Positions 25,481-34,953 of a DNA stretch of 64,000 nt are shown piece by piece. The position numbers were made by a program, and so were the translations under genes. Position 1 is the first letter of the stretch. Each line of letters begins with the position of its first letter. The stretch lies in NCBI RefSeq assembly GCF_019173455.1, contig NZ_JADPQH010000001.1, forward strand, positions 682,001-746,000, in the 5' to 3' direction. This stretch comes from Nesterenkonia sp. Act20. GTDB taxonomy: Bacteria; Actinomycetota; Actinomycetes; Actinomycetales; Micrococcaceae. The notes beneath the pieces were generated by a model that saw only the letters and a list, made by a program, of their open reading frames with translations, was not told the DNA's origin and searched no databases.

Positions 25481-26218
25481 TCAGCGTCGGGAGTCGGTGG
25501 GGTCCTCGCCGTCGGAGAGTCCGTCCCAGAGGTCGAACTCATCCGGGTCGGTGTCCCGACCGCTGCGTGCCTGCGAGGCTGGCCCGGCAGCCGTGCCCGC
25601 GCCGTGTTCCTCGGCAGAGCCTCCGTGGGCTCGCTGCTCGCTGCCCGATTCGCCTCCGGACACCTGGTACTTGCGCGACTGGCGATCCGGCCACCGGTGG
25701 GAGAGCAGCAGCAGTGCGAGCGAGGCGACGAGCAGCAGCAGCGCGCCGGCGAAGCCCAGCCACACGGCGCCGGAGAGCTCGTAGCGCTGCGCTTCTGCGG
25801 TGGTGCCGGTGATCTCCCCCAACGCACTGGCGGCGGTGGAGCCGGTATCGGCGAGCACGGCACGGACCGAGAGCAGAGCGATGATCGCGGCGCCGAAGAG
25901 CACCGAACCGATCAGCACCCTCCCGAGCAGCTTTGCGATCGAGACGGCCAGTCCGGCGGCGAGGCCCACCAGCCCCATGGCGGTGACGGTGTCCACCAGG
26001 TCTGCCCCGGAGATCTCGACCTCTTGGACTGCGGAGGTGGCTCCGAGCCCGGAGGCGGTCACCCAGGTCATGGTCGAGGAGATCAGCAGCATCGCCCCGC
26101 CGATGAGGGTCATCCAGACCACGGTGCGCCGGGTCAGTGCGCGGCGCAGACGGGCGGACCAGCCTTCGGGGCGGCCGGGTCGGGCGCCCTGCGGGTCTGG
26201 CGTCGTGGTCTCACTCAT
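25481..26218 (-). CDS. Trp biosynthesis-associated membrane protein
   Basis: Matches the Trp_oprn_chp family of actinobacterial trp operons. Its 245 residues have four predicted membrane helices (about 32-50, 76-96, 99-122, 150-173), the first followed by STMTWVTASG, then a long hydrophilic Gly/Ser/Asp-rich C-terminal tail. The role is unknown; a transport or enzyme-anchoring function has no direct evidence. ATG at 26218 overlaps the trpE stop by 4 nt. Confidence 0.88.
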   Translation of the reverse strand: MSETTTPDPQGARPGRPEGWSARLRRALTRRTVVWMTLIGGAMLLISSTMTWVTASGLGATSAVQEVEISGADLVDTVTAMGLVGLAAGLAVSIAKLLGRVLIGSVLFGAAIIALLSVRAVLADTGSTAASALGEITGTTAEAQRYELSGAVWLGFAGALLLLVASLALLLLSHRWPDRQSRKYQVSGGESGSEQRAHGGSAEEHGAGTAAGPASQARSGRDTDPDEFDLWDGLSDGEDPTDSRR

Positions 26219-27825
26219 GTGTGCTCCAGTCGGTCGGCGGCCAGCACGGCGCGCAGCGGAGCGGCGGCCTTGTTCACGGTCTCCAGGCGTTCGGCGTCGT
26301 TCTCGGAGTCCGCCACGATTCCGCCGCCCGCCTGCACGTAGGCGCGGCCGTTCTTCAGCAGCGCCGAGCGGATGGCGATGGCGGCGTCCATGCGGCCGGA
26401 GAGGTCGAAGTAGCCCACCACTCCCCCGTAGATGCCCCGCCGCGTCGGCTCCCAGGCGTCCAGCAGCTGAAGTGCCCGCGGCTTCGGCGCTCCGGAGAGG
26501 GTCCCGGCAGGGAAGGTCGCCGAAAGGACGTCGTAGGCGGTGTATTCACTGGCAAGCTCTCCCTGCACGTGGCTGGTCAGGTGCATCACGTGGCTGAAGC
26601 GCTCGACTGCCATGAACTGTGTGACCTGCACCGAGCCGGGCACGCAGACCTTGGCCAGGTCGTTGCGCGCCAGGTCCACGAGCATGATGTGCTCGGCGCG
26701 CTCCTTCTGGTCCGCCAGCAGGTCCTCGGCGAGCTCGGCGTCCTGGCGCGGTGTCTCTCCGCGTGGCCGGGTGCCGGCGATCGGATGGGTGACCACGGTG
26801 GTGTCCTCCACGGTGACCAGCGCTTCAGGGGAGGCGCCGACCAGCTGGTAGGGCTCGCCGTCGGGGGTCTCGAAATGCATGAGGTACATGTAGGGACTCG
26901 GGTTGAGCAGGCGCAGCATCCGGTAGACCGCGAGGGCATCCACGTCGGTCTCGACCTCGAATCGTCGCGAGACCACGATCTGGAACACCTCGCCGTCCAC
27001 GATCGCCTGTTTGGCCTTGGTCAGCGTCGCCAGGTATTCGTTCTCGTCCCAGGCATGGACGACGCGTTCTTGGAGGTCCCGCTCGACGGCGGCGCCCCAG
27101 TTCCGCTCCGCGGCGGAGATCACGGGGGCCACGGGCTCGGCGAGCTTTGCCGCCATAGCATGCAGCCGGGCCACGGCGTCGGAGTAGGCTGCCTCGACTC
27201 CGGTGTCGAGGCCATCGAAGTTGATCGCGTTGGCGACCAGCGTGACGGTGCCGTCACGGTTGTCGTGCACCGCGAGGTCCGAGACCAGGTTCATGGCCAT
27301 CTCGGGCACATGAAGATCATCTCGGGGCGGGTTCGGCAGCTTCTCCCAGTGGCGGATGACGTCCCACCCGGCGTAACCGACCAGCCCGGAGGTCAGGTGC
27401 GGAAGCTCCTCGATGAAGGGCCTGCCGGGGGCTGCGCGCCCCGCCTCCCCCGCGGTGTCACCCGGGGCGCCCCCGGAGAGGAAGGTGAGCGTATCGCGCA
27501 GCACCTCCGCAGTGCTGCCCTGCAGCGGTGCTCCCCGGGGCGGCTCTCCCATCCAGTGGGCCGCACCGTCCTTCTCGCTGAGCGTGGCCGAGGAGTGCAC
27601 GCCGATGAAGGAATGGCGGGACCAGGCGGCGCCCGGCGCCGCGGACTCCATCAGGAAGGTCCCTGGGCGTGCGGAGCCTGTGTGGTCAGTGGCCAGCGCA
27701 CGATAGATGCTCAAGGGGGTGTGCGCGTCCGCGAGCAGCGTCATCGTCACCGGGATGACGCGGTGATCCTGGGCAAGATCGAGGAACTGCTCCCGAGCGG
27801 GCACCACGCTGCCGAGATCATGCAT
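26215..27825 (-). CDS. trpE: Anthranilate synthase component I
   Basis: Chorismate to anthranilate with TrpG, which is not in the window. The 536 residues have the N-terminal Trp-binding region with a LLES-like element (FLMESAAP) and the C-terminal chorismate domain: [46 protein letters not shown] and YGGVVGYFD. Feedback inhibition by Trp is expected. The ATG at 27825 overlaps the hisI stop by 8 nt, so trpE is physically joined to the his genes. Confidence 0.97.
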
Positions 27826-28246
27826 GGGCGATCTCCCGCCCGGTGAAGCAGGTGGCGGTGCCGGTGTGGCAGGCGGGGCCCGTCTGCTCCACCTTCATCA
27901 GCACGGTGTCACCATCGCAGTCCAGTGCAAGGGAAACGACGTGCTGGACGTTGCCAGAAGTGGCTCCCTTGCGCCAGAGCTCGCCGCGCGAGCGGGAGAA
28001 GTACACGCCCTGACGCGTCGCCAACGTGATGCCGAGCGCCTCGGAGTTCATCCAGGCCAGCATCAGGACCTCGTGGCTGTCGGCATCCTGGGTGATGACC
28101 GGGATCAGGCCATCGGCGTTGAAGCGCACCGCGTCCAGGACCGCATCGGGCAGACTCGCGGCTGACTCGGCGGGGTGTTCTGCTGCTGAGGACTCGGCAC
28201 CCTGGGGTGCGGCGAGTCCAGATGCGGTGGAGTCGGCGGTGCTCAT
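27818..28246 (-). CDS. hisI: Phosphoribosyl-AMP cyclohydrolase
   Basis: Third step of histidine synthesis, zinc-dependent opening of the adenine ring. The conserved core begins at [14 protein letters not shown] and runs through [29 protein letters not shown] and the zinc ligands [12 protein letters not shown] 35-residue Ala/Ser-rich N-terminus precedes it. The ATG at 28246 is chosen because GAGGA lies 5 nt upstream; another ATG at 28258 would overlap the hisF stop (ATGA) and add four residues. The product is 142 residues and lacks a fused HisE, which is encoded separately. Confidence 0.95.
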
Positions 28247-28254
28247 CAAAGTCC

Positions 28255-29019
28255 TCATCTCACCGGATAACCGGCAGATCGTATGGCGTTCTTGACCTGG
28301 GCGATCATGTCATCCGGGCCGAAGTGGAACATGGAGGCCGCAAGGACCGCATCGGCTCCAGCGGCGATCGCAGGCGGGAAGTGCGCCGGAGTGCCGGCGC
28401 CGCCCGAGGCGATCAGCGGGACGGAGCTGACGGCCCGCACGGCGGCGATCATCTCGGTGTCGAAGCCATCTCGGGTGCCGTCCGCGTCGATCGAGTTCAG
28501 CAGGATCTCGCCCACGCCGCGCTCCGAGGCCTCGCGGCACCAGCTCAGCGCATCGATGCCGGTCCCCTGCCGTCCTCCGTGAGTGGTGACCTCATAGCCC
28601 GACTCGGTGGCCGAGCTGCGCCGTGCGTCCAGGGACAGCACGAGCACCTGATTGCCGAATCGAGCGACGATCTCATTGATCACCTCGGGGCGGGACACCG
28701 CGGCGGTGTTGATGGAGACCTTGTCGGCTCCGGTGCGCAGCAGCCGGTCCACATCGGCCGGTGAGCGGACTCCACCGCCCACGGTCAGCGGAATGAACAC
28801 CTCTTCGGCGGTGCGAGTGACGACGTCGTAGGTCGTCTCGCGGTCGGCCGAGGAGGCGGTGACGTCGAGGAAGGTCAGCTCATCGGCCCCGGCACGGTTG
28901 TACCGGTGGGCGAGCTCCACCGGATCCCCGGCGTCGCGGAGATTCTCGAAGTTGACTCCCTTGACCACGCGACCTGCGTCGACGTCCAGGCACGGGATGA
29001 CTCGGACTGCCAGTGTCAT
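28255..29019 (-). CDS. hisF: Imidazole glycerol phosphate synthase, cyclase subunit
   Basis: TIM-barrel subunit that makes imidazole glycerol phosphate and AICAR from PRFAR using ammonia from HisH (not in the window). The 254 residues include the catalytic Asp in [15 protein letters not shown] (D12) and DADGTRDGF, plus VSINTAAV and GAGTPAHF phosphate loops. ATG at 29019 lies 14 nt after hisG. Confidence 0.98.
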
Positions 29020-29033
29020 CGGCTACCTCGATA

Positions 29034-29885
29034 TCAGACGCGGCAGGCGTGGATGGAGGAGACCAGGATGGCGCGGGCACCGAGCTCGTAGAGCTCGTCC
29101 ATCAGCTGGTTGGTCTTCTTCGACGGCACCATCGAGCGCACGGCGACCCAGTTCTCATCGGCCAGCGGGGAGATGGTCGGGGATTCCAGACCGGGGGTGA
29201 TCGCGGCGGCCTGGGGAAGCAGGTCGCGGTGCACGTCGTAGTCCATCATCACGTACTGCCGTGCGACCAGGACGCCCTGCAGCCGACGGATCAGTCGATC
29301 GAGCCCCTCGGGGCGCTGGTCGCGTCCCGAGATCAGGATGGCCTCAGAGTCCATGATGGGCTCGCCGAAGGTCTCCATCCCCGCGGCTTTGAGCGTGTTG
29401 CCGGTCTCCACGACGTCGGCGATGGCGTCTGCGACGCCGAGCCGCACGGAGGTCTCCACGGCGCCGTCGAGGTGGACCACTTCGACGTCGGATACTCCCT
29501 GGGACTCGAACCAGTGGGCGAGCAGGCCGTCGTAGCTGGTGGCCACGCGGGTCCCGGCGAGGTCCGCCGCACTGGTGAAGCGTCCGGCGGGTCCTGCCAG
29601 GCGGAAGGTCGACTTGCCGAAGCCCAGCCCCAAGACCTCCTCGGCACCGTGATCTACCCGAGCGTCCTGGAACAGATCGCGCCCCGTGAGCCCGATGTCG
29701 AGGGTTCCGGCGCCCACATAGACGGCGATGTCGCGGGGGCGAAGGTAGAAGAACTCCACCTGGTTCTCCTCGTCGAGCATGACCAGTTCGCGCCGGTCGC
29801 GGCGCTGGACGTAGCCAGCCTCGGAGAGCATCTCCATGGCGGCCTCGGAGAGGGCGCCCTTATTGGGAACAGCAATGCGCAGCAT
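29034..29885 (-). CDS. hisG: ATP phosphoribosyltransferase (long form)
   Basis: First step of histidine synthesis, ATP plus PRPP. The 283 residues start LRIAVPNKG and have the PRPP loop region LVETGNTLKAAG-like segment, then a C-terminal ACT-like regulatory domain of about 75 residues that binds histidine in the long form, so HisZ is not needed. The ATG at 29885 gives the conserved N-terminus; an in-frame TTG two codons upstream is not needed. hisE lies 72 nt upstream. Confidence 0.97.
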   Translation of the reverse strand: MLRIAVPNKGALSEAAMEMLSEAGYVQRRDRRELVMLDEENQVEFFYLRPRDIAVYVGAGTLDIGLTGRDLFQDARVDHGAEEVLGLGFGKSTFRLAGPAGRFTSAADLAGTRVATSYDGLLAHWFESQGVSDVEVVHLDGAVETSVRLGVADAIADVVETGNTLKAAGMETFGEPIMDSEAILISGRDQRPEGLDRLIRRLQGVLVARQYVMMDYDVHRDLLPQAAAITPGLESPTISPLADENWVAVRSMVPSKKTNQLMDELYELGARAILVSSIHACRV

Positions 29886-29957
29886 AGTCAATCTCGTCTT
29901 TTCGTGTGCAGGTGATAGAGCGGTCGGCGATTCTTCTCAGCTGATGTCGCGAGGGAA

Positions 29958-30239
29958 TCAGAGGTACTGGTAGACGTCCTCCGGGGAGATCCCCTTGGCG
30001 ATCATCATGACCTGCAGATGGTAGAGCAGCTGGGAGATCTCCTCGGCGGTCTCGGCCTGGGTCTGGTACTCCGATGCCATCCAGACCTCGGCGGCCTCTT
30101 CCACGATCTTCTTTCCGATCTGATGGACGCCGGCGTCGAGGGCTGCGACGGTGCCCGAGCCCTCCGGACGGGTCTCGGCCTTCTGGGCAAGTTCGGCGTA
30201 CAGCTGATCGAAGGTTTTCACCGCTCCAGGGTATCTCAC
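29958..30239 (-). CDS. hisE: Phosphoribosyl-ATP pyrophosphatase
   Basis: Second step of histidine synthesis. The 93 residues form an all-alpha MazG-like fold with [17 protein letters not shown] and [15 protein letters not shown], as in mycobacterial HisE. The GTG at 30239 overlaps the ribH stop (GTGA) and matches the mycobacterial N-terminal length; a second GTG at 30221 (VKTFDQ) has a closer GGAG and is an alternative. The overlap fuses the rib and his blocks. Confidence 0.95.
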
Positions 30240-30736
30240 GAGGCCAGCGCGGCGATCTCCGCCGCCGCTGCGAGAGCCGCATGGGCGGACTCGAACCCCT
30301 TGTCCTCCTTGGAGCCTGGCAGACCTGCGCGATCCAGCGCCTGGGCCTCATCGTCGCAGGTGAGCAGTCCGAACCCGACGGGGGTCCCCGAGGTCAGCGC
30401 GACCTGGCTCAGCCCATCGGTGGCGGCATTGCAGACATACTCGAAATGCGGGGTGCCACCGCGGATCACGACGCCGAGGGCGACCACGGCGTCGAATCGG
30501 GCGGCGGCATGGGAGGCGATCACCGGCAGCTCGAAGGACCCAGGAGCGCGCAGCAGCGTCACCTCCTGGACCCCGACCTGTTCGAAGAAGCGCTGAGCAC
30601 CGGCGATCAGCCCGTCCATGACCTCCTGGTGCCAGCGTGACGCGACGACGGCGACCCTGAGTCCGTGCTGTGCCGCTGCGCGGGCGAGCGCGTCGAGTTC
30701 GTCCTGCTGGATCTGTGGCGTTCCGGTGCCGCTCAT
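30236..30736 (-). CDS. ribH: 6,7-dimethyl-8-ribityllumazine synthase
   Basis: Condenses the pyrimidine intermediate with dihydroxybutanone phosphate; usually a 60-mer or pentamer. The 166 residues contain [43 protein letters not shown] and the catalytic-His region just after, and [21 protein letters not shown] precedes the ATG at 30736. It is separated from ribBA by a C-rich repeat region and overlaps hisE. Confidence 0.96.
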
Positions 30737-30753: not shown

Positions 30754-30787
30754 TCTGGGGTGTGGGCTGTTCTGGGGTGTGGGCTGT
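30754..30787. repeat. Tandem repeat, 17-bp unit x 2
   Basis: TCTGGGGTGTGGGCTGT occurs twice back to back (30754-30770, 30771-30787). On the transcribed minus strand it reads C-rich and G-poor, just ahead of the ribH ribosome site. Confidence 0.85.
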
Positions 30788-30811
30788 TTCTGACGCGTGC
30801 GGTGGGTCTGA

Positions 30812-30858
30812 GCTGGCTGGGGCTGGCTGGGGCTGGCTGGGGCTGGGCTGGCTGGGGC
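30812..30858. repeat. Tandem repeat, 10-bp unit, three perfect copies plus partial
   Basis: GCTGGCTGGG repeats at 30812, 30822 and 30832, then degenerates to about 30858. The minus-strand RNA would be CCCAGCCAGC repeated. It is the only simple-sequence tract of this kind in the window and could vary in copy number. Confidence 0.85.
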
Positions 30859-30875
30859 TCAGGTCAAGGACGTGG

Positions 30876-32945
30876 TCACTGCTCGTGCAGCTGCAGGTGG
30901 TCCAGCGTGTGGTTCATCCGGTCGCGCTTGGTCTGCAGGTACCGCAGGTTCGTCTCGTGCACCACGCCGGTGGAGGGGACGAGCTCCACGTCCAGACCGG
31001 CTCCGCGCAGCGTGTCGACCTTGACCGGGTTGTTCGTCATCAGCCGGAGCCGACGGATCCCGGCGGAGTGCAGGATCGCGGCCGCCCCGGTGAAGTCGCG
31101 CAGCTCGGCGGCAAGGCCCAGCATCTCGTTGGCCTCCACCGTGTCCGCTCCCTGTTCCTGGAGCTTATAGGCGCGCATCTTGTTGGCCAGCCCGATGCCG
31201 CGCCCCTCATGGCCGCGCAGGTAGAGCAGATGTCCGCCGTCGCGCTGGATGGACTCCAGCGCCGAGGCGAGCTGGGTGCCGCAGTCGCAGCGCCGGGAAC
31301 CGAGCACATCACCGGTGACACATTCGGAGTGCATCCGTATCAGCGGACGGGATGCGTCCTCCTTGCCCTCCCCGGGGGCCTGCGCGAGCGCCGAGATGAG
31401 CATATGTTCATGGCCGGTCGCGTGCTCGGTCCAGACCTGGGCCGCGAAGACTCCGTGATCGGTGGGCAGCGTGACCACCGGGCCCGGGGTCACAAGCTTC
31501 GCGAGCTCGTCGCTGGGGGCCTCCCAGCTGGCCGCCACCGAATCCATCGCGGCGCCGTGGCTCGGGGTCCCCCCGCGGTAGGCGATCAGGTCCGCGATGG
31601 AGACGAGCGCGAGCCTGTGTGCGTCGGCGAAGTCGCGCAGCGCGGGCAGGCGCATCATGCGGCCGTCGTCGTGGGTCAGCTCGGCGATCACACCGACCTC
31701 GGGCAGGCCAGCGAGCCGGCACAGGTCCACGGCCGCCTCGGTGTGCCCCGGACGACCCAGCACCCCCGCAGGGTCCGCGATGAGCGGAAAAAGGTGACCG
31801 GGTCGGCTCAGATCGCCGGCGGTGGTGGCGGAGTCCGCCATGACACGCACGCTGAGCGCGCGATCGGCGGCGCTGATCCCAGTGCTCACTCCCGAGGCGG
31901 CATCGGCGCTGATCGTGTACGCGGTGCCCTTGGGATCCTCGTTCTCGGTGACCATCGGCGGCAGCTGCAGGTGCTCCGCCCGCTCGGGCGTCATCGGCAC
32001 ACAGATGACCCCTGAGGTGTAACGGACCGTCATCGCCATGAGCTCCTCCGTGGCGAGTGAGGCCGGGAAGATGATGTCGCCCTCATTCTCGCGATCGGCG
32101 TCATCGACGACGACGACGGGTCGCCCCGCCGCGAGCTCGTTGAGGGCGACGTCGATGGGATCAAGCAGCGGGGCCGGAGTCTCCGGCTGGGGAATGCTGG
32201 GAACCGGAGAGGACGACCCTGGGCCTGCAGCGTCATCGCTGGCTCCATGAAGGCCGGCCGCTACACCGGCAGCGCCCTCCACCGCAGCGTCCTTGTCCTC
32301 AGCTCCCGCTCCGGCGCGGGCGGCGGGGCCGGGGAGGTGATGGCCGAACTGCAGCATGCGCCGGGTGTACTTCGCGAGCACGTCGACCTCGAGATTGACC
32401 ACTCCGCCGACCGAGAGGTCGCCGAGGGTGGTCTCGGCCAGCGTCGTCGGAATCAGCCCCACCTCGAACCACGGCTGCGCGGACGCTGGGTCCGAGACCG
32501 CAGTGACGGTCAGCGACACCCCGTCGACGGCGATCGAGCCCTTCTCCGCGAGATACGGAGCCAGCTCGGCGCTGATCTGGAAGCGGTGCCTGCCGTCCTG
32601 CGGGTCCCGCTCCACCAGTTTGCCGAGACCGTCGACATGGCCCTGGACCACGTGGCCGTCCAGGCGGGCGCCGGCGGGCAGGCAGCGCTCAAGGTTGAGC
32701 CGATCGCCCACGCCGAGCTTGCCCAGCGCAGTGCGCTTCAGCGTCTCTGGGATCAGCTCCACGCTGATCCGGTCACCGTCGATGTCCACAGCGGAGACGC
32801 AGACCCCGTTGACGGCGATCGAGCCGCCGAGGGCCAGACCTTCGGTGTGCCCGGGGGCGGCGAAGCTCAGCCGCTCCACGAACTTGGTGGGTTCGAACCG
32901 ACGTTCGAGGACCTCTCCCAGACCAGTCACGATTCCGGTGAACAT
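30876..32945 (-). CDS. Fused riboflavin synthase / DHBP synthase / GTP cyclohydrolase II
   Basis: One uninterrupted frame of 689 residues holds three enzymes. Residues 1 to about 205 are RibE, with two lumazine-binding repeats (MFTGIV start, [22 protein letters not shown]). An Ala/Gly/Pro-rich linker runs to about 262. RibB follows ([31 protein letters not shown]), then RibA from about 475 with the zinc cysteines of SECVTG...RRCDCG, the catalytic [11 protein letters not shown] and [10 protein letters not shown]. All key residues look intact, so it should supply both riboflavin precursors and the last step. RibBA is a common fusion; with RibE in front it is not. ATG 32945 overlaps ribD by 19 nt. 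Confidence 0.93.
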
Positions 32946-34003
32946 GTGTCTCCTTTCGGCTGCAGGTGCACACAGACATCGGAGTCCATGATCTGCACCG
33001 GCCCGCTCTCGGCGGGGTCGAGTGCGAAGCGGGGCGCTTCGCGAAGTGTTCTCACGCCGATGTCACCGATGCTGGCGGTTCCAGCACCTAGCAGAAGCGG
33101 GGCGTGGTAGGCGAAGACCTCGTCCACGAGCCCAGCGGCGAAGAAGGCCGAGAGCACGCTCTGGCCACCCTCGACGAGGACGTGCTTGACGGGGTACCCG
33201 CCGTGCGTGGTCTGAGCGAGCTCCTGCAGGGCTTCCAACGGATCTCGGGTCCGCAGCTGCACCCAGCCCTCACCCTCGGGGAGTGCCTGGGTCAACTTGC
33301 AGCGCTTCGGCACGGGGGTCAGGCCCATGACCACACGGAGCGGCTGACGCTGGGTGAGGTCCCCGGCGGGGGTGCGCGCGGTCAGCCGGGGGTCGTCCAC
33401 CGCCACGGTGTTGGTGCCCACCAGGATCGCGTCGGCCCGGCTGCGGACCTGATGCGTGTGCTCGCGCGAAGCTTGTGAGGTGATCCATTGGCTGGTTCCG
33501 TCGGCGGCCGCGATCCGCGCGTCGAGGGTCTGGGCCAGATGGACCGTGACGAAGGGACGCTGCTGCTCCTGGGCCGTCGTCCACCGGTGATTCAGCGCCT
33601 CGCATTCCTCTCTCAACACGGAGGAGACCACCTCGATTCCCGCGCGACTCAGCACCGCCGCTCCCCCGCCGTTGCTCGTCGGGTCCGAGGCGCCGTGGAC
33701 GAGCCGACCGATGCCCGCGTCGATGATCAGCTGGGTGCAGGCGGGCTGGCGACCCTGATGCCGGCACGGCTCCAGTGAGGTGTACAGCGTCGCAGAGCTG
33801 AGGTCAGCGCCGTCTGGGTGAGAGGCGAAGAAGTTCGCGATCGCGTCACGCTCTGCGTGGAAGGTGCCTGCTCCTCGATGGTGGCCCTGAGCGAGCACCT
33901 CGCCCTGTGCGGAGACGAGCAGGGCTCCGACCAGCGGATTGGCTCCTCGGACGCCTGAGAGCGCCAGCTCCAAGGCTTGGGTCATCGCTGACTCGTGAAG
34001 CAA
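32927..34003 (-). CDS. ribD: Bifunctional pyrimidine deaminase/reductase
   Basis: Second and third steps of riboflavin synthesis. The N-terminal deaminase has the zinc motif HAERDAI and the PCXXXGXXPXC-type EPCRHQGRQPACTQLI; the C-terminal reductase has DARIAAADGTSQWIT and VEGGQSVLSAF. I place the start at a TTG (34003): GGGAGGAG lies 7 nt upstream, and the extra residues LHESA align with the family's N-terminal helix. The product is then 358 residues. An ATG at 33985 is the conventional alternative. It sits under an FMN riboswitch. Confidence 0.93.
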   Translation of the reverse strand: MLHESAMTQALELALSGVRGANPLVGALLVSAQGEVLAQGHHRGAGTFHAERDAIANFFASHPDGADLSSATLYTSLEPCRHQGRQPACTQLIIDAGIGRLVHGASDPTSNGGGAAVLSRAGIEVVSSVLREECEALNHRWTTAQEQQRPFVTVHLAQTLDARIAAADGTSQWITSQASREHTHQVRSRADAILVGTNTVAVDDPRLTARTPAGDLTQRQPLRVVMGLTPVPKRCKLTQALPEGEGWVQLRTRDPLEALQELAQTTHGGYPVKHVLVEGGQSVLSAFFAAGLVDEVFAYHAPLLLGAGTASIGDIGVRTLREAPRFALDPAESGPVQIMDSDVCVHLQPKGDTCSPES

Positions 34004-34012
34004 CGGCCGTCT

Positions 34013-34042
34013 CCTCCCAGCGTGTCGAGGCACTCCGGGAAG
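34013..34042 (-). promoter_or_regulatory. Possible SD-sequestering hairpin of ribD
   Basis: On the minus strand CTTCCC (34037-34042) can pair with GGGAGG (34013-34018) of the ribD ribosome site. Together with the riboswitch upstream this suggests control of translation rather than of termination. Energies were not computed. Confidence 0.35.
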
Positions 34043-34120
34043 GCCGATGCGGTGAGGCGTCGACGCAGTCCGCCTGCGTGAGCTCCGCGCGATGGCGGAG
34101 TCCACAGGGCGCGGACTCTC

Positions 34121-34256
34121 GTGCTTCTCCCATCCAGACTGTGACTGTCGGTACCGGAGTTCCACCGGTTCAACCAAGACCGGAGCAGCTGGGCTGCACC
34201 TGACTCGGGTCGCGGACTTTGACCGCCGGTTCGGATTTTCACCGATCCCGGAGCAC
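34121..34256 (-). promoter_or_regulatory. FMN riboswitch (RFN element)
   Basis: The minus strand has the conserved RFN blocks in order: CCGGGATCGGTGAAAATCCG, AACCGGCGGTCAAAGTCCGC, GACCCGA, then GAACCGGTGGAACTCCGG, ACCGACAGTCACAGTCTGGA and the closing GGGAGAAGCAC that pairs with GTGCTCC. The peripheral helices are all represented. It ends 117 nt before ribD, where it should turn off the rib genes when FMN is high. Confidence 0.96.
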
Positions 34257-34361
34257 GAATTGTGTAGCACCAAGTGTGCCACATGCGCCGGCGCGGCCCG
34301 TCCGCACCGCAATCTGGGGCAATCAAACGACTGGGCCGGCAACGGCTGGCCGCCGCGGCAT
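34257..34361 (-). promoter_or_regulatory. Promoter region of the rib array
   Basis: CACAAT within GCTACACAATTC (about 34259-34264) ends just before the 5' end of the riboswitch, so transcription would start close to its first paired base. No clear -35 box was found. Confidence 0.4.
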
Positions 34362-34403: not shown

Positions 34404-34409
34404 GTTCTG

Positions 34410-34483
34410 AGCGGATGACGAGATTCGAACTCGCGACCCTCACCATGGCAAGGTGATGCTCTAGCCAGCTGAGCTACATCCGC
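34410..34483 (-). tRNA. tRNA-Gly(GCC), copy 1
   Basis: 74-nt cloverleaf on the minus strand, acceptor GCGGATG/CATCCGC with discriminator T, anticodon loop TTGCCAT (GCC), T loop TTCGAAT. CCA is not encoded. Identical to the copy at 34880-34953. Confidence 0.97.
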
Positions 34484-34535
34484 ATGAGTTCAGGACCGCC
34501 CGCCACCTTCTCGGCGGCAGATTCCCTGTACTCAG

Positions 34536-34607
34536 TGCGCGATACTGGGATCGAACCAGTGACCTCTTCCGTGTCAGGGAAGCGCGCTACCGCTGCGCTA
34601 ATCGCGC
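34536..34607 (-). tRNA. tRNA-Val(GAC)
   Basis: 72-nt cloverleaf, acceptor GCGCGAT/ATCGCGC with discriminator A, anticodon loop CTGACAC (GAC), T loop TTCGATC. CCA is not encoded. Confidence 0.97.
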
Positions 34608-34690
34608 CCGTATGGACTGTCTCATCCATTCAGACTTATTCAGTTCTCATTGTTCCCAGTCTCCCCGCCCGGTGCTCGAGCGAAGCTGCG

Positions 34691-34761
34691 AGGTGGGGAC
34701 GGGAATCGAACCCGCGTTAACGGCTTTGCAGGCCGCTGCCTCGCCACTCGGCCACCCCACC
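34691..34761 (-). tRNA. tRNA-Cys(GCA)
   Basis: 71-nt cloverleaf, acceptor GGTGGGG/CCCCACC with discriminator T as expected for Cys, anticodon loop CTGCAAA (GCA). CCA is not encoded. Confidence 0.97.
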
Positions 34762-34879
34762 GTAGCCATCCCCGAAACACTACACCGTCCCGGACTGACA
34801 TCCAGCGACCGGGTCATCGAAGACCTGGCTGCCGTGCAGTGATCCTGCTGATCGTCCAAGGGTTTCCCCAGATCCTGCG

Positions 34880-34953
34880 AGCGGATGACGAGATTCGAAC
34901 TCGCGACCCTCACCATGGCAAGGTGATGCTCTAGCCAGCTGAGCTACATCCGC
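34880..34953 (-). tRNA. tRNA-Gly(GCC), copy 2
   Basis: First gene of the cluster in transcription order; base-for-base identical to the tRNA at 34410-34483. The cluster therefore runs Gly-Cys-Val-Gly. CCA is not encoded. Confidence 0.97.

Follow-up and report, generated by a model that had tools for sequence, protein, structure and literature searches.

A genus-wide RibE-RibB-RibA fusion in Nesterenkonia and recurrent RibE-RibB joining in Micrococcaceae

The enzymes of riboflavin synthesis normally occur singly or in pairs (RibBA, RibDG). RibA feeds RibD, RibB feeds RibH, and RibE disproportionates the product of RibH and returns a pyrimidine to it. RibE is a trimer by family and RibBA is a dimer. 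The described systems closest to the locus reported here are the bifunctional RibBA (NF006803; PDB 4i14, which we take to be the M. tuberculosis protein), the riboflavin synthase RibE (PRK09289, TIGR00187; PDB 9ryj, 4e0f, 1i8d) and the heavy riboflavin synthase, in which a RibE trimer sits in a RibH capsid. The C-terminus of RibE carries a cage-localisation peptide that directs it into the RibH cage in Aquifex and Bacillus (PMC13376624). The RibH-dependent share of RibAB movement in B. subtilis is small, and the authors of that study considered it insufficient to draw a conclusion (PMC8414670). A literature search by title and start of abstract gave no described RibE-RibB or RibE-RibB-RibA fusion among the matches listed, and passages of PMC4418817, PMC13028884 and PMC3403918 make no mention of either; the initial annotation of this DNA, made from the letters alone, had likewise known of no example.

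The window, i.e. the whole stretch of 64,000 nucleotides that was analysed, comes from Nesterenkonia sp. Act20 and carries RibE, RibB and RibA in one frame. Its protein shares with bifunctional RibBA the B-then-A order, the cysteines and the catalytic residues, but it adds a complete riboflavin synthase at the N-terminus via a 58-aa linker and misses the cut-off of NF006803. From riboflavin synthase it keeps the two lumazine-binding barrels and the catalytic residues, but here the RibE C-terminus continues into RibBA. Heavy riboflavin synthase also brings RibE to another pathway enzyme, whereas the window tethers RibE covalently to RibBA instead: the free C-terminal localisation peptide that marks the former is absent, the RibE part continuing into RibB in frame. 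The window RibH aligns best, and without a loop gap, with 4j07 and 1w19, presumably pentameric RibH of mycobacteria, and one of its loops has two residues more than that of 3mk3, which we take to be a capsid-forming enterobacterial RibH. Judging from its sequence, the window RibH probably forms no capsid. Closer relatives of the fusion were found in the same family, where RibE-RibB fusions of two genera, coded g3 and g6, have the same junction; unlike in the window, RibA is a separate gene there, and these fusions have separate origins on the gene tree.

Architecture and setting of the fusion gene

The fusion gene is a single stop-free frame of 689 codons encoding RibE, RibB and RibA in this order, with an estimated chain mass of about 72 kDa. 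Its parts and neighbours are the following.

30876..32945, minus strand: ribE-ribB-ribA fusion gene, 689 aa (one uninterrupted frame with three Pfam families)
32343..32945, minus strand: RibE part, residues 1-201, two lumazine-binding barrels and a C-terminal stretch (Pfam, PDB alignment)
32169..32342, minus strand: linker, residues 202-259, 58 aa, rich in Ala, Gly and Pro (locus comparison)
31575..32168, minus strand: RibB (DHBP synthase) part, residues 260-457 (Pfam, PDB alignment)
31479..31574, minus strand: spacer between RibB and RibA, residues 458-489
30897..31478, minus strand: RibA (GTP cyclohydrolase II) part, residues 490-683 (Pfam, PDB alignment)
32950..32956, minus strand: AAAGGAG, a ribosome-binding-like site before the RibE ATG
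32927..34342, minus strand: ribD frame upstream of the fusion gene, its true start probably inside the frame
34117..34260, minus strand: FMN riboswitch ahead of ribD (Rfam RF00050, scoring 96.6 bits where the gathering score is 66.2)
30236..30736, minus strand: ribH, lumazine synthase, a separate gene downstream of the fusion gene

All three Pfam families score far above their cut-offs: Lum_binding (PF00677) matches two stretches, the better at residues 101-188, DHBP_synthase matches residues 267-456 (7e-78) and GTP_cyclohydro2 residues 491-653 (3e-53). Residues 1-201 align with riboflavin synthases of the PDB; for residues 261-684 the aligned region is 4-408 in the RibBA chain 4i14. The initial annotation had read one frame with intact motifs of the three enzymes, and the frame and the Pfam matches bear out its coordinates, strand and domain order; its Ala/Gly linker of roughly 57 residues measures 58 and is also rich in Pro. 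Codon use in the window linker is not typical, since GC at the third codon position is 0.67 there against 0.86-0.88 in the domains. The host genome (2.93 Mb, 97% complete) has the fusion gene as its sole match to the fusion protein, with no second match at E 0.001.

The 3' end of the ribD frame overlaps the ribE start by 19 bases. Upstream of the riboswitch lie four tRNA genes (Gly-gcc, Val-gac, Cys-gca, Gly-gcc; 34409-34953), of which the two tRNA-Gly have equal Rfam scores and equal anticodons. GC-rich short tandem repeats, with units of 17 and about 10 bases, occupy 30754-30788 and 30812-30859 between the fusion gene and ribH. Downstream of ribH, translations of 26215-29891 resemble, by eye, HisG, HisF, HisI and TrpE, and the riboflavin cluster thus seems to adjoin his/trp genes.

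The catalytic residues were compared with positions of 1i8d, 1g57 and 2bz0 that we take to have catalytic roles in RibE, RibB and RibA. The protein starts with MFTG, has two Lum_binding domains and keeps Cys48, His102, Lys137, Ser146, Thr148 and Asp185 (1i8d numbering); C49, H98, H103, K135, S144, T146 and D188 are present in its RibE part. The RibB part has the DDxDRENEGD motif, the conserved Cys and His136, His153 and Glu174 (1g57 numbering), with D281, R285, E286, E288, D290, C315, H384, H401 and E422 present. The RibA part has the three zinc cysteines (542, 553, 555) and Y593 and R616, i.e. Tyr105 and Arg128 in 2bz0 numbering. It carries E614 (31104-31106) where the solved chain 2bz0 has Asp126. 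Glu at this position is found in 28 of the 32 RibE-RibB-RibA rows (Asp in 3, a gap in 1), and also in 12/46 rows with RibE apart from a RibB-RibA fusion and 15/42 rows with RibA apart from a RibE-RibB fusion. A dead domain in the window protein was not borne out, no usual catalytic residue being lost except for this Asp-to-Glu change at 614. Another triple fusion, L173, carries Gln in place of RibE Lys137, a replacement shared by 10 of the 46 rows with separate RibE.

Among curated models, those of riboflavin synthase (PRK09289, 203.1 bits for a cut-off of 155; TIGR00187, 174.1 for 156.6), of ribB (TIGR00506, 221.1 for 177.45) and of RibA (PRK00393, 214.2 for 148) are passed. TIGR00505 (ribA, 194.7 bits for 205.85) and the NCBIfam model NF006803 of bifunctional RibBA (507.1 for 569, matching residues 261-686) are missed, a shortfall that we read as divergence.

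Conservation in the genus and recurrence in the family

A scan for stop-free frames in 30 genomes of the genus, among them that of the window, shows RibE, RibB and RibA sharing a frame in 29, one of which (L028) has its contig broken off within RibA. The remaining genome, G015, has a completeness of 62%, and its matches are split into several pieces and contain stops. Named Nesterenkonia and Garicola loci, which tie the window to the genus and are largely of the same species and at most 95% identical to the window protein, have a single frame in 22 of 22 cases. Across 28 genomes of the genus the linker spans 20 to 63 aa and is always in frame, and mean pairwise identity is 0.73 in RibE, 0.79 in RibB, 0.79 in RibA and 0.37 in the linker. 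In the eight pairs computed, dN/dS ranges from about 0.02 to 0.30 in the three domains (the top value being RibB of L017 vs L020) and from about 0.2 to 0.66 in the linker, which exceeds each domain in every pair. The three enzyme parts are thus under purifying selection and the linker evolves much faster. Ala makes up 22% and Pro 20% of the linker across the genus; the conserved part of the linker is a proline-rich stretch adjacent to RibB, with TPAP directly before RibB in 23 of 29 loci.

Domain layout was classified in 242 distinct loci, 143 of them in a Micrococcaceae sample of 27 genus codes (g24, g25 and g26 matched but had no coordinates listed, and g11 and g12 were left out); the loci come from search matches and hand choice, so that counts are not frequencies. 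Outside Nesterenkonia, RibE-RibB-RibA fusions were found in L111 (g3), L169 (g9) and L173 (g14), all Micrococcaceae. RibE-RibB fusions with a separate RibA were found in 27 loci of g3 and 14 of g6, and in L067; L156-L159, L163, L195-L206, L208-L215, L217-L223 and L262-L275 represent their recurrence in the two genera. L067 is labelled Curtobacterium sp. S6 (Microbacteriaceae), yet it falls inside g3 on both trees and its name is probably wrong. The recurrence of RibE-RibB joining in Micrococcaceae, with three further triple fusions and two genera with RibE-RibB fusions, is new.

No fusion was seen in 41 loci of other families with both genes present (among L051-L110, Micrococcaceae and L067 excluded), in 23 loci at the order level (among L130-L154, where L149 lacks RibE and L148 belongs to Micrococcaceae) or in 16 loci at the phylum level (L279-L294). 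A search of 396 genomes of the phylum gave 17 matching genomes at 1e-115, a threshold at which lower-scoring fusions would not appear; the window is the sole full-length row without a stop, eight others having one or two stops each. Phyla beyond Actinomycetota were sampled only through the locus set that yielded the named Nesterenkonia and Garicola loci.

Several individual loci deserve comment. G199/L228 is ruled out as a further triple fusion, its linker being an N gap. L216 is not unfused, as RibE runs into RibB in one frame up to an N gap. Nor is an unfused state upheld for L207, whose frame breaks at about 1325-1570 in a very GC-rich RibE/RibB linker while its sister L195 is fused; the break is either a real split or a sequencing error. 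In several Micrococcaceae genera the usual RibBA fusion is itself absent and the three enzymes occupy three separate frames (L161, L166-L168, L170, L176, L177, L179-L181, L186, L187, L189-L191 and L194 among them). All four sampled genomes of g12 (G040, G069, G092, G114) and two of g3 (G156, G204), 98-100% complete, gave no match at 1e-20, and these are possible riboflavin auxotrophs.

A FastTree phylogeny of 149 rows requires 8 changes for RibE-RibB joining; two of these, as read from the tree, are L207 and L216 (frame break in the linker; N gap). On an IQ-TREE phylogeny of 62 rows without these two loci it needs 6 changes, 4 of them forced by strongly supported branches, and the full triple fusion needs 4, of which 3 are forced; such change counts alone do not tell gain from loss. 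In AU tests, a single clade is rejected for the fused rows as a whole (p = 2e-62), for the complete set of RibE-RibB-RibA rows (p = 1.5e-4) and for the fusions in g6 (p = 0.013). Hence, RibE-RibB joining arose repeatedly in Micrococcaceae. A clade of Nesterenkonia and the long-branched L169 is not rejected (p = 0.227), and a separate origin of the L169 fusion is not established. The tree rows nearest to Nesterenkonia belong to g15 and are unfused (support 93/80).

How the genes were joined

As the initial annotation had supposed, ribE in unfused Micrococcaceae loci is a separate gene just before ribB(A), with a median of 23 nt separating the RibB domain from the stop of ribE. It had also proposed that loss of the ribE stop would create the fusion and that the junction be inspected in related genomes. 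This inspection argues against stop loss: in 67 unfused family loci, ribB is offset from the ribE frame by 2 in 62, by 1 in 4 and by none in 1 (59, 4 and 1 of 64 without L030, L207 and L216, which are broken or gapped). Since the frames differ in 66 of 67 loci, stop loss alone is insufficient and is rejected as the route. An indel of +1 or -2 ahead of the ribE stop is the simplest way in which an offset-2 pair would fuse in one step. The genes were probably joined by a frame-changing indel near this stop, in an ancestor whose ribE and ribBA almost touched, with the linker lengthening afterwards. Linkers probably did grow, because those of Nesterenkonia (20-63 aa) are longer than the space of about 8 codons in unfused loci. 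Other fusions have linkers of 5 aa (L173), 8 aa (L169) and 7-64 aa (RibE-RibB fusions of g3 and g6).

One might argue that joining was selectively neutral, an indel having run ribE into ribBA with no selection against it. The genes nearly touch, and out-of-frame stops are rare in Nesterenkonia because its GC content is high (mean 0.687). Yet g3 has the RibE-RibB fusion at GC down to 0.50, and other families have similar gaps and often one shared frame for ribE and ribB (8/31 and 14/40 loci) with no fusion seen. Neither observation is decisive, and we regard a neutral origin as a serious rival, one that stands a real chance while falling short of probable.

Function of the fused protein

Whatever its origin, the product is very probably a trifunctional polypeptide, i.e. 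three working enzymes tethered in one chain, at 1:1:1, downstream of an FMN riboswitch; the retained catalytic residues are consistent with this, as are the near-universal frame in the genus, the selection on the enzyme parts, the scarcity of start sites near RibB in Nesterenkonia and the similar fusions elsewhere in the family. Points against it are the missed NF006803 and TIGR00505 cut-offs, E614, the Gln of L173 and the atypical codon use of the linker. RibE, RibB and RibA would be made from one start site as one chain, which would fix their ratio. Each part would fold and work independently, tethered by the flexible Ala/Pro linker, and trimeric RibE with dimeric RibBA would probably give rise to higher-order assemblies.

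The initial annotation had suggested that the protein could channel DHBP and return the pyrimidine made by RibE to the lumazine step. In the textbook pathway none of the three fused enzymes makes a product that another of them takes up, and RibH is encoded by a separate gene (30236-30736). Direct hand-over within the chain is thus unlikely, because no pathway step links two of RibE, RibB and RibA. Since the three enzymes are not consecutive, any gain would lie elsewhere, in fixed stoichiometry or in a gathering around RibD and RibH, unless the fusion is nearly neutral. One might speculate that three RibBA dimers link two RibE trimers, or that a more extended network forms, as a self-assembling scaffold that gathers RibD and RibH and replaces the RibH capsid in a lineage with non-caging RibH, but we find this arrangement unlikely.

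The cell might also make two products, the full chain and a free RibBA from a ribosome start inside the linker. At the place of the old ribBA start, 14 of 29 Nesterenkonia loci have GTG and one has ATG. Under a wider definition covering the whole linker, and applied to fused loci alone, a Shine-Dalgarno-like site accompanies an in-frame start in 9 of the 29; the window is among them, with a GTG 38 codons before RibB that follows AAGGA. Yet these sites are not conserved in position, no conserved internal start was found in the 29 loci, and in the window the codon at the old start place is CTG. When one definition is applied to both groups, 47 of 64 unfused loci have a Shine-Dalgarno-like site with an ATG or GTG close to RibB, against 5 of 29 in Nesterenkonia, the window not among them. 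The same definition gives 1 of 27 fusions in g3 and 10 of 14 in g6, where the candidate starts lie 20-24 codons upstream of RibB, inside the RibE tail. The old RibBA start has thus decayed in most fused lineages, and dual products seem improbable to us.

We give as little credence to a post-translational cut in the linker that would release RibE and RibBA. The linker is long, Ala/Pro-rich and fast-evolving, like some protease-sensitive linkers, but its conserved part is the proline-rich stretch beside RibB, and the 5-aa and 8-aa linkers of L173 and L169 leave little room for a cleavage site; these are weak points in its disfavour. Finally, a sequencing or assembly error, of the kind suggested by two unreliable family loci (L228 with an N gap as linker, L216 with one inside RibB), has practically no chance of having made the Nesterenkonia fusion and is ruled out by the 29 of 30 genomes that agree on a single frame with in-frame linkers of many lengths; this recurrence across the genus, together with the 22 named loci, excludes chance or artefact.

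The tethered trifunctional enzyme, which remains our favoured reading, would unite on one chain, throughout a genus, the enzymes that open the two branches of the pathway and the one that closes it. The repeated joins in Micrococcaceae amount to a natural replicate experiment on why non-consecutive pathway enzymes fuse. They may also offer ready-made trimer-dimer fusions for work on enzyme scaffolds and vitamin production.
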